64,000 nucleotides of DNA from contig NZ_VJZZ01000012.1 in assembly GCF_009659535.1 (NCBI RefSeq), positions 62,001 to 126,000 of the forward strand. Reading direction: 5' to 3'. This document shows positions 13,740 through 38,055 of this stretch, one piece after another. Made by a program: the position numbers and the translations under genes. The stretch is from Aggregicoccus sp. 17bor-14. GTDB taxonomy: Bacteria > Myxococcota > Myxococcia > Myxococcales > Myxococcaceae. The notes below the pieces were generated by a model. That model was given only the letters and a program-made list of their open reading frames with translations, was not told the DNA's origin and ran no database searches. Numbering within the stretch: position 1 is the first letter of the stretch; every line of letters begins with the position of its first letter.

Positions 13740-14323
13740 TCGAGTTCTTCGCCTCGGCCCTCCTGCTCGTGCAGCCCGGCGCCCCGGGCGGCGCGCCGGC
13801 CGCTGCCGCCGTGGCCGCGCCCGCCGCGGCCGCTTCCGCCCCGGCTGCGGCCCCGGGCACCCCGAAGGCCGCCGCCACCCCGGCCCAGCGGCTGAAGAAC
13901 CCGGTGGACATCAAGGCCCAGCTCTTCGAGCTGCTGGGCAACAAGAACCAGGCCTCCTACAAGGGCAACGTGGTGGTGCGCCACCGCACGCTGGTGCTCA
14001 AGTGCGACGAGCTCACCAGCTTCTACTCCAACGGCAACGCCCAGCAGGTGCGGCGCGTGGAGTGCGTGGGCAACGTGGAGGCGGTGGACGGCGACCGCAC
14101 CGCCAAGGGCGAGCGCGCCGACTTCGACGTGGCCAGCGGCATGCTGGTCGTCACCGGCGCTCCCGAGGCGCGCCAGGGCAACAACTACATGCGCGGCACC
14201 AAGGTGACGCTCACCCTGGGCAACCGGCGCATCCTGGTGGAGAACGCCGAGACCCTCTTCGAGACCACGCCGGGGGGGATGCCGCAGCTGCCCGCGCCGG
14301 CGGGTGGGGCCAGCCGGCCGTGA
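13736..14323 (+). CDS. lptA: LPS transport periplasmic protein LptA
   Basis: LptA forms the periplasmic bridge carrying LPS to LptD. The 195-residue product has a short hydrophobic N-terminus ([17 protein letters not shown]) and an unusually long Ala/Pro linker to about residue 48. The OstA-like repeat follows: [38 protein letters not shown], then [28 protein letters not shown] and [18 protein letters not shown]. The GTG start overlaps the TGA of lptC and its own TGA overlaps the lptB GTG. The signal peptide is weak, but the fold and context are clear. Confidence 0.88.
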
Positions 14324-15054
14324 GCGCGCTGCTGCAGGCAGAGGGCCTGCACAAGGCCTTCCGCGGCCGCAAGGTCGTGGACGGCGTGAGCTTCCAGGTG
14401 CGCCAGGGCGAGGTGGTGGGCTTGCTGGGCCCCAACGGCGCGGGCAAGACCACCAGCTTCAACATGGTGGTGGGGCTGGTGGCGGCGGACGCGGGGAGGG
14501 TGCAGCTGGAGGGCGAGGACCTCACCCGCCTGCCCATGCACCGCCGCGCGCGCCAGGGCCTCGGGTACCTTCCGCAGGAGGCGAGCATCTTCCGCAAGCT
14601 CACCGTGCGGCAGAACTTCCTCGCGGTGCTCGAGCTGCAGCGCCGCTACGACCGGCGCGCCCGCGAGGCGCGCGCCCAGGAGCTGCTCGAGGAGTTCGGC
14701 CTCACCCACGTGGCGGACAGCCTGGGCGAGACGCTCTCGGGCGGCGAGCGGCGGCGCGCCGAGATCGCCCGCTCGCTCATCCCCGGCCCCCGCTTCATCC
14801 TCTTCGACGAGCCCTTCGCCGGCGTGGACCCCATCAACGTGGGCGACCTGCAGCGCCAGATCTTCCTGCTCAAGCAGCGCGGGCTCGGGGTCCTCATCAC
14901 CGACCACAACGTGCAGGACACCCTCGGCATCTGCGACCGGGCCTACATCATCGCCCAGGGCCGCATCCTCGAGGAGGGCACCCCGGAGCAGATCGCCGCG
15001 AGCCCCCGCGCCCGCGCCGTGTACCTGGGAGAGCGCTTCCGGCTCTACTCCTGA
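14320..15054 (+). CDS. lptB: LPS export ABC transporter ATP-binding protein LptB
   Basis: LptB is the cytoplasmic ATPase of the LptB2FG complex that extracts LPS from the inner membrane. The 244-residue protein has Walker [12 protein letters not shown] (about residues 36-46), the Q-loop [16 protein letters not shown], signature [15 protein letters not shown], Walker [14 protein letters not shown] and H-loop ITDHNVQ, all with the LptB-specific wording. The start is a GTG overlapping the lptA stop by four bases. The membrane partners lptF and lptG are not in the window. rpoN follows after a 311-bp regulatory gap. Confidence 0.95.
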
Positions 15055-15140
15055 GTCGCGAAAGCCCCGGGCCCGGCCCGGGCTGCCGCCCGGTGGCGCG
15101 AAGCCCCCGGAGTGTTCAGCGGCGGGCCCGCTACAGCCCT

Positions 15141-15156
15141 TGGCCCGGCATTTGCG
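15141..15156 (+). promoter_or_regulatory. Sigma-54-type promoter upstream of rpoN
   Basis: TGGCCCG-N4-TTGCG matches the -24/-12 consensus TGGCACG-N4-TTGCA with the invariant GG (15142-15143) and GC (15154-15155) exactly 12 bases apart. The predicted start is near 15167, giving a leader of about 200 bases to the rpoN ATG. It suggests RpoN-dependent transcription of rpoN itself. Confidence 0.6.
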
Positions 15157-15202
15157 TTGCCTGTTGAACGTCCAGGGGGTGTCCAACCAGGGCCCGCAAG
15201 TG

Positions 15203-15225
15203 CCCGATTCTCAAGAGGAATCGGG
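15203..15225. repeat. Inverted repeat in the rpoN leader
   Basis: CCCGATTC (15203-15210), a 7-base spacer and GAATCGGG (15218-15225) form a perfect 8-bp inverted repeat. It lies between the sigma-54-type promoter and rpoN. No T-tract follows, so it is more likely an operator or an RNA hairpin than a terminator. Confidence 0.6.
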
Positions 15226-15286
15226 GCTATGCAAGCAGGGGACCAGGCGGTGGTGGGCTTTACGCCCTTGCGCCGTCTTGATAGCT

Positions 15287-15302
15287 TGGCACGGTCCTTG
15301 AG
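15287..15302 (+). promoter_or_regulatory. Second, imperfect sigma-54-like element before rpoN
   Basis: A full TGGCACG -24 element is followed after four bases by TTGAG. The -12 GC is changed to GA, which normally cripples sigma-54 recognition. It lies 64 bases before the rpoN ATG and may be a weak promoter, a holoenzyme decoy or chance. Confidence 0.25.
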
Positions 15303-15365
15303 GCGGTGGTCGCCATCAGGGAGCACGGACTGCAGCCGTCCGCACACCGAGGTCGAGCAAGCCCC

Positions 15366-16880
15366 ATGGCGATGGAACTCAAGCAGAGCCTGAAGTTGAG
15401 CCAGCAGCTGGTGATGACGCCCCAGCTCCAGCAGGCGATCAAGCTTCTGCAGCTGTCCCGGATGGAGCTGCTCGAGCAGGTGCGCGAGGAGATGGAGCAG
15501 AACCCCCTGCTCGAGCAGCCGGACGAGCAGGCGGTCGGCGACGTCACGGACAAGGAGCCCGGCGAGGCCTCGCTCGAGGCGGAGAACCTGGAGGCCCCCC
15601 GCGACCTGGAGGCCCCCCAGCCCGAGACCGCCCAGGAGTTCAAGCCGGAGAACAGCGACGGCCCCCCCGAGATCGACTGGGAGGCCTACCTCAACAGCTA
15701 CCAGTTCAACGAGCAGACCACCGCGTCCAACAAGGGCAACGTGGCCACGGACGACCTGCCGTCGTTCGAGGCCAACCTCGTGGAGAAGGAGGACCTGGTC
15801 GACCACCTGCAGGAGCAGCTGGGCACCCTGCGCCTCAACGAGGCCGAGCGCCGCATCGGCATGCTCATCCTGGGCAACCTGGACGACGACGGCTACCTCA
15901 AGCTGCCGGACGTGGAGGGCGACCCGCTCATCCGGCTCGCCAACGAGGCGGACGTGCCCATGCACGTGGCCGAGCGCACCCTGCGCCGCATCCAGAGCCT
16001 GGACCCCAAGGGCTGCGGCGCGCGCGACCTGCAGGAGTGCCTCCTCATCCAGGTGACCGCGCTCAAGGACCCGCACTCGGCGCTGCTCGGCACCATCATC
16101 AAGCGCCACATGCGCCACCTGGAGAGCAAGAACCTGCCGGCCATCGCCAAGGAGCTGAAGGTCTCCCTGGACGAGGTGGTGGCCGCCGCGAAGCTGCTCA
16201 CCAAGCTGGACCCCAAGCCGGGCCGCAACTTCAGCGGGGACGACGCGCAGTACATCTCCCCGGACGTCTTCGTCTACAAGATGGGGGAGGAGTACACGGT
16301 CGTCCTCAACGACGACGGCCTCTCCAAGCTCCGCATCTCCGGCACCTACCGCAACGCGCTGAAGAACGGCGCCGTGGGCCCCGGGCAGACCAAGGACTTC
16401 ATCCAGGACAAGCTGCGCAGCGCGATGTGGCTCATCCGCTCCATCCACCAGCGGCAGCGGACCATCTACAAGGTCACCGAGAGCATCGTGAAGTTCCAGA
16501 AGGACTTCTTCGACAAGGGCATCGCCCACCTCAAGCCGCTCATCCTGCGCGACGTGGCCGAGGACATCGGGATGCACGAGTCCACCGTCTCGCGCGTGAC
16601 CACCGCGAAGTACGTGCACACCCCGCAGGGCATCTTCGAGCTGAAGTACTTCTTCAACTCCTCCATCGCGCGCGTGAGCGGCGAGGACACCGCGAGCGAG
16701 GCGGTGAAGCACCACATCAAGCAGCTCGTGGCGCAGGAGGATCCGAAGAACCCCTACTCGGACCAGAAGCTGGTGGAGCTGCTGCGCGCGCAGGGCACCG
16801 AGATCGCCCGGCGCACCGTGGCCAAGTACCGCGAGGTGCTGGGCATCCTCCCCAGCAGCAAGCGCAAGCGCTACTTCTAG
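15366..16880 (+). CDS. rpoN: RNA polymerase sigma-54 factor RpoN
   Basis: Sigma-54 directs RNA polymerase to -24/-12 promoters and needs NtrC-type activators. The 504-residue protein begins with the Gln/Leu-rich region I (MAMELKQSLKLSQQLVMTPQ). An acidic region II (about residues 55-125) follows, then the core-binding and HTH regions. It ends with the RpoN box ARRTVAKYRE at about residue 482. The ATG at 15366 matches the conserved family start; upstream codons belong to the leader. The gene follows lptB, as in many proteobacteria. In M. xanthus rpoN is reported to be essential, and here several sigma-54 elements, including the pxr promoter, lie in the same window. Confidence 0.98.
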   Translation: MAMELKQSLKLSQQLVMTPQLQQAIKLLQLSRMELLEQVREEMEQNPLLEQPDEQAVGDVTDKEPGEASLEAENLEAPRDLEAPQPETAQEFKPENSDGPPEIDWEAYLNSYQFNEQTTASNKGNVATDDLPSFEANLVEKEDLVDHLQEQLGTLRLNEAERRIGMLILGNLDDDGYLKLPDVEGDPLIRLANEADVPMHVAERTLRRIQSLDPKGCGARDLQECLLIQVTALKDPHSALLGTIIKRHMRHLESKNLPAIAKELKVSLDEVVAAAKLLTKLDPKPGRNFSGDDAQYISPDVFVYKMGEEYTVVLNDDGLSKLRISGTYRNALKNGAVGPGQTKDFIQDKLRSAMWLIRSIHQRQRTIYKVTESIVKFQKDFFDKGIAHLKPLILRDVAEDIGMHESTVSRVTTAKYVHTPQGIFELKYFFNSSIARVSGEDTASEAVKHHIKQLVAQEDPKNPYSDQKLVELLRAQGTEIARRTVAKYREVLGILPSSKRKRYF

Positions 16881-37907: not shown

Positions 37908-37923
37908 TGGCACGCAGCCTGCT
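37908..37923 (+). promoter_or_regulatory. Consensus sigma-54 promoter of the pxr small RNA
   Basis: TGGCACG-CAGC-CTGCT matches -24/-12 almost perfectly, with GG at 37909-37910 and GC at 37921-37922, 12 bases apart. The predicted start is near 37934. It is the best sigma-54 promoter seen in the window. Confidence 0.85.
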
Positions 37924-37933
37924 AAGACACTCC

Positions 37934-38055
37934 CCGGGACACATCGAAGGCCCGCTGAAGGCGGTTCCCCCCCACCCCTTCAGCACTTCAGGTGCGTTTC
38001 CTGTAGAAGACCCGCGGCCCGACGCTCCTCGTGAGTGTCGGGCCGCCTTCTTTTT
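37934..38055 (+). ncRNA. pxr: Pxr small RNA (developmental repressor sRNA)
   Basis: The sigma-54 promoter start and an intrinsic terminator delimit about 120 nt with no coding potential. Predicted stems are CCGC-TGAAG-GCGG (37952-37964), GCAC-TTCAG-GTGC (37983-37995) and the 13-bp terminator stem. The first two loops carry complementary-looking TGAAG and TTCAG pentamers. Gene order kinase, NtrC-type regulator, sRNA is that described for pxr in M. xanthus, where Pxr blocks fruiting-body development while nutrients last. Identification is by synteny, promoter and three-stem architecture, since I cannot align to the M. xanthus sequence here. Confidence 0.8.
38015..38055 (+). terminator. Intrinsic terminator of pxr
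   Basis: CGGCCCGACGCTC (38015-38027), loop CTCGT, and GAGTGTCGGGCCG (38033-38045) form a 13-bp stem with one G-U pair. CCTTCTTTTTC follows. It is also the third stem-loop of the sRNA and sits 30 bp from the convergent catalase-like gene. Confidence 0.9.

Follow-up and report, generated by a model that had tools for sequence, protein, structure and literature searches.

The leader of rpoN in the Myxococcaceae carries a conserved sigma-54-type element that, judging from its position, overlaps what looks like the housekeeping promoter of the gene in every family member examined, suggesting that RpoN probably restrains its own synthesis. The reading that we favor is negative autoregulation by occlusion, to which we assign a probability of roughly 0.5; sigma-A would transcribe rpoN, and a parked RpoN holoenzyme would limit that transcription.

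The window, that is, the whole stretch of DNA analyzed, comprises 64,000 nucleotides (contig 12, positions 62001 to 126000, from a 6.9-Mb genome). On its plus strand, a gene for an lptB-like ABC transporter ATPase (14320 to 15054, stop codon at 15052 to 15054; Pfam ABC_tran and BCA_ABC_TP_C) lies upstream of rpoN (15366 to 16880, ATG at 15366). The 504-aa rpoN product harbors the activator-interacting, core-binding, and DNA-binding domains, all found by Pfam (Sigma54_AID, Sigma54_CBD, and Sigma54_DBD). The leader between the end of the lptB-like gene and the ATG measures 311 bp, and a pattern search found no intrinsic terminator between the two genes. A riboswitch or other known RNA was ruled out for the leader, as its plus strand gave no Rfam match and a match in lptB was only at chance level; the fold energy of the leader is ordinary (z of -1.5). 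The leader is also distinct from the pxr small RNA locus, which is located 22 kb downstream within the window. There, the Pxr developmental sRNA (Rfam RF01812, 86.9 bits) occupies positions 37947 to 38054 of the plus strand, and a canonical sigma-54 site at Pxr (TGGCACGCAGCCTGCT, 37908 to 37923), the top-scoring one in the window, follows the 3' end of an NtrC-like regulator gene. By inspection, we dismissed a short upstream reading frame that would begin at the ATG in ATGCAAG, since this ATG is lost in genus g26 and the frame shifts across genera.

We compared the rpoN leaders of 69 genomes from 24 genera of the family (f1, Myxococcaceae in the wide sense), together with 40 leaders from outside the family but within the same order and phylum; a second outside set of 60 rpoN leaders was checked for strong sigma-54-type sites. 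The relatives in the public genome set were Myxococcus, Pyxidicoccus, Corallococcus, Citreicoccus, Hyalangium, and Archangium-like genomes. Sites were scored with an approximate sigma-54 matrix, whose frequencies were set from the published consensus and not fitted, and the genome-wide counts correspond to pattern matches.

The strongest and most conserved element of the leader, which was absent from the preliminary description, is TTGGCACGGTCCTTGAG, located on the plus strand at 15286 to 15302. This proximal element lies 79 bp before the ATG in the window and 24 to 79 bp before it over the 69 leaders; if it is a promoter, its predicted start is near 15313. The pattern TTGGCA[CT]-N6-TTG was found in 69/69 leaders and in all 24 family genera. 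In register, every one of the 69 reads TTGGCA[CT][GA]-N4-TTG, and the -24 GG within TGGCA is correctly spaced to the -12 region throughout. The next base, at -12, is A in 60 leaders, T in 6, G in 2, and C in 1; at -13/-12, where a canonical site has GC, the G is present in 69/69 and the C in 1/69. Because of this rarity of C at -12, we call the element sigma-54-type and avoid the term canonical promoter. Its -24 letters and TTG are fixed, while the 4-bp spacer is free to vary between distant genera, which is the pattern of constraint expected of a sigma-54 site. M. xanthus also carries the element (TAGACGAAGTCAGGGCTCCTTGTTACGTTGGCACGGTCTTTGATGG, L124). Among the 40 rpoN leaders from outside the family, no plus-strand TTGGCAC-type element was found at this position except for one isolated match, a look-alike near the start codon (TGGCACGATTTTCGCA, G101), and strong sites were only sporadic in the second set of 60 outside leaders. 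Within the genome, TGGCACG-N4-TTG occurs in 3 places, the proximal element being one of them.

The proximal element overlaps a putative sigma-A promoter on the plus strand, consisting of a -35-like hexamer (TTTACG, 15259 to 15264) and a -10-like hexamer (TAGCTT, 15282 to 15287) directly preceded by TGA (TGn, as in an extended -10), with a predicted start near 15294. TAGCTT shares its last two bases with the start of the sigma-54 element, and in 67/69 leaders a TAnnnT adjoins TGGCA, ending on the first T's of TTGGCA. A -35 followed by a TAnnnT -10 at 17 ± 1 bp is found, with the -35-like hexamer exactly 17 bp upstream in most genera. This hexamer is mostly TAGACG or TGGACG in the relatives, with TTGTNN in g5, TCGACG in g13, and TGACG forms in g2 and g18, and TGn precedes the -10 in many family leaders. 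The sigma-A-like -35 is poor in g16, g19, and g22, and in two genomes of g20 a TATTCT or TATCCT is displaced somewhat further upstream. Both hexamers would count as weak in E. coli, and a strict E. coli-type consensus scan reported no promoter in the leader; therefore, the sigma-A promoter call rests on conservation. The predicted sigma-A start lies within the sigma-54 element; if it is real, the two holoenzymes are unable to occupy the leader at the same time.

The leader holds two more sigma-54-type sites. The middle one (TGGTCCCCTGCTTGCA, GG-N8-TTGCA) lies on the minus strand at 15230 to 15245, 57 bp upstream of the proximal element, and its predicted start, if used, is near 15219, heading left. 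GG-N8-TTGCA is present 56 to 59 bp upstream of the proximal element in 12/24 genera, versus at most 3 genera at unrelated offsets. Its plus-strand letters TGCAA and CC are invariant in the core alignment, and in the divergent genus g10 the flanks of the site are changed, the GG and TTGCA are kept, and the -24 letters are improved (AGGCATACCGGTTGCA).

The distal site (TTGGCCCGGCATTTGCG, 15140 to 15156, plus strand), with a predicted start, if used, near 15167, is the one reported at the outset. The described TGGCCCG-N4-TTGCG ahead of rpoN is present letter for letter (TGGCCCGGCATTTGCG, 15141 to 15156); its distance of about 210 bp from the ATG holds when counted from the end of the site; the site itself lies 225 bp before the ATG. 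The exact motif has 2 occurrences in the genome, and under the approximate matrix the distal site ranks 4th of about 128,000 window positions, the third being TGGCACGGTCCTTGAG (15287 to 15302) in the same leader. The canonical GC at -12 is retained by this site. A distal -24/-12-like site (GG-N10-GC) is kept in 6/24 Myxococcaceae genera (g1, g14, g15, g17, g23, and g26), and it is missing in g4, g8, g10, and g11 by alignment and from most genera. In the 16 aligned carrier leaders, TTGGCC and TTGCG are invariant; 12/17 positions of the site are invariant versus 51/210 over the whole block, a contrast that is partly circular since the carriers were chosen for having the site. A TGAAC block (TTGAACGTCC in the window, 15162 to 15171) located 3' of the distal site is conserved even in genera without that site.

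The 8-bp inverted repeat CCCGATTC-TCAAGAG-GAATCGGG (15203 to 15225, without strand), with its N7 spacer, lies 3' of the distal site exactly as first described. A repeat as good appeared in 85/1000 letter shuffles of the leader, which is close to chance, and the window contains 81 such perfect 8-bp repeats. When 20 sequences were aligned, pairing at the eight positions was preserved in 63% of cells versus 61% in shuffles (104/500 shuffles were as high), and the partner slid by one column pairs equally well. The earlier suggestion that the repeat is a repressor site is not supported, as pairing in the 19 relatives is no better than in shuffles and one repeat of this kind is expected in the leader nearly by chance; the same pairing and shuffle comparisons led us to reject a conserved hairpin or dyad. 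On these alignments, the inverted repeat is particular to this genome and lies outside the conserved design of the leader. Conservation upstream of rpoN in other myxobacteria, which had been proposed as a check on both elements, extends to the six genera mentioned for the distal site and is not seen for the dyad.

Sites of the proximal type were also counted across 58 family genomes. The pattern TTGGCACG-N4-TTG gave 104 matches versus 48 for the reversed control; by reading of the list, about 43 of them are the rpoN site, and without the rpoN sites the count is near background. In the same genomes, sites with C at -12 (TTGGCAYR-N4-YTGCW) gave 180 matches versus 42 reversed, and the commonest -12 form among them is CTGCT, not TTGCA. 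As judged from such matches, active promoters of the group seem to keep the -12 C, in contrast to the proximal rpoN site. Nevertheless, loss of this C alone is no proof of silence, because a second conserved site with a non-C -12 exists, TTGGCACA-N4-TTGGA (L199:1732-1748, corresponding to 207131 to 207147 of contig 4 of the genome that contains the window). It is found in genera g1, g8, g11, g14, g15, and g17, downstream of an NtrC-like regulator and between it and a gene starting MHSFNRPLGPIGSNVV, and it may be an active promoter. Four more distant MAGs, three labeled Myxococcales and one labeled Proteobacteria (L158, L160, L165, and L179), carry a canonical minus-strand sigma-54 site, TGGTAC-N5-TTGCT, approximately 106 to 126 bp ahead of rpoN; this may be a separate instance of an rpoN leader that has RpoN sites.

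From the sequences described above, with their conservation, spacing, overlap, and genomic rarity, we infer the occupancy of the leader by RpoN, the sigma-A start, and the sign of the regulation. A sigma-54 holoenzyme is unable to open DNA without an activator. In the mechanism we propose, the sigma-A promoter (TNGACG-N17-TAnnnT, often with an extended -10) would constitutively transcribe rpoN. The RpoN element, TTGGCACG-N4-YTTGA, would begin inside the sigma-A -10 hexamer and cover the sigma-A start region, and RpoN holoenzyme on this proximal site would form a closed complex, unable to open without an activator, so that the sigma-A holoenzyme would be excluded. The parked RpoN holoenzyme would perhaps also stop read-through from lptB. 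Such a block would scale with RpoN abundance, more RpoN resulting in less rpoN transcription. The middle minus-strand site, joined in some genera by the distal one, would bind extra RpoN holoenzyme, which may reinforce the block or supply a conditional promoter. We offer only tentatively the fuller version of this model, in which the RpoN level would be set by a poised-holoenzyme switch, with RpoN as a repressor on a non-firing -12 site located within its own sigma-A promoter and with the back-to-back site 57 bp upstream assisting.

Overlap by itself leaves the net effect, negative or positive, undefined. The preliminary description had suggested RpoN autoregulation through an NtrC-type activator; action of RpoN on its own gene is a well-supported hypothesis, mainly through the element at 15286 to 15302 (24/24 genera), while the distal site is restricted to 6/24 and no activator site was identified. 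The overlap with the housekeeping promoter, together with the non-consensus -12, favors occlusion over NtrC-type activation. A dual promoter with positive autoregulation, in which sigma-A would provide basal expression and an NtrC-type activator would fire the proximal or distal RpoN promoter when more RpoN is needed, e.g., during development, is less likely than occlusion. It would fit with the TTGGCC and TTTGCG kept at the distal site in 6 genera, with the many activators of the family and the control of rpoN via sigma-54 promoters predicted in several other classes (PMC12316311), and with the possibility that non-C -12 sites are active. However, the -12 C is gone from 68/69 proximal sites, most genera are without the distal site, the reported repeat is unconserved as an activator dyad, and an Nla28 half site was found in 1/69 family leaders.

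It is also conceivable, although improbable, that the main role of these sites is in divergent transcription, with the one on the minus strand driving an RpoN-dependent antisense RNA through the leader toward lptB that would tune lptB or rpoN read-through. The canonical minus-strand GG-N8-TTGCA in 12 genera, AT-rich just 3' of the -12, would be in keeping with this, but the site is missing in half of the genera, the sequence to its left varies by genus, and the stretch has no Rfam match and no terminator. Very improbable, in our view, is that something other than RpoN binding, such as a role in the sigma-A promoter and the mRNA 5' end, explains the retention of the proximal motif, and that its likeness to sigma-54 sites is coincidental. 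The motif does coincide with the predicted sigma-A start region; however, the retained letters (TTGGCA and TTG) are those that sigma-54 needs while the 4-bp spacer varies, the motif precedes rpoN itself, and two more conserved sigma-54-type sites lie alongside.

Autoregulation of rpoN and competition between sigma-54 and sigma-70 are both already known, and every step of the proposed mechanism has a precedent (PMC3844500, PMC6755734, PMC3538637, PMC2725144). In Rhizobium leguminosarum, RpoN lowers the expression of its own gene, a negative autoregulation as cited in PMC3538637; this case belongs to another bacterial class, and the parallel drawn concerns the proposed sign of regulation. Sigma-54 promoters predicted ahead of rpoN itself (PMC12316311; Geobacter is another case) likewise place rpoN within its own regulon. 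In that survey of sigma-54 regulons, rpoN autoregulation was enriched in Bacilli, Clostridia, Proteobacteria, and others and was not significant elsewhere, with Myxococcia unlisted (PMC12316311); the Myxococcaceae gene differs from the surveyed ones in the sigma-A overlap and the non-consensus -12. At glmY/glmZ of Salmonella, as cited in PMC3844500, sigma-70 and sigma-54 promoters overlap, two holoenzymes compete before one gene, and glmZ is up in an rpoN mutant. There, the target is an sRNA gene and the sigma-54 promoter is known to fire, whereas the Myxococcaceae site lies ahead of rpoN, has lost the -12 C, and has no known activator. At pilE of Neisseria, a sigma-N site lies near or overlaps a sigma-70 promoter, and bound sigma-N is proposed to block that promoter when there is no activation (PMC6755734); pilE, however, is a pilin gene, and the RpoN of N. 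meningitidis is reported as non-functional or non-canonical (PMC6755734). In the mostly open-access literature covered, we found no description of a fused architecture that is fixed in a single family, lacks the -12 C, and includes a second site placed back to back, nor of the control of RpoN abundance in this group.

The rpoN gene is reported to be essential in M. xanthus (PMC12316311, PMC2725144), and excess RpoN is harmful in Geobacter (PMC2725144). Many RpoN activators in these bacteria run development and other behaviors. If negative autoregulation by occlusion is true, RpoN would bind DNA to repress the gene that encodes it, a natural clean case of an alternative-sigma holoenzyme acting as a repressor. 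Overall, the family-wide overlap of an RpoN site with the rpoN housekeeping promoter would amount to a simple and directly testable feedback rule.
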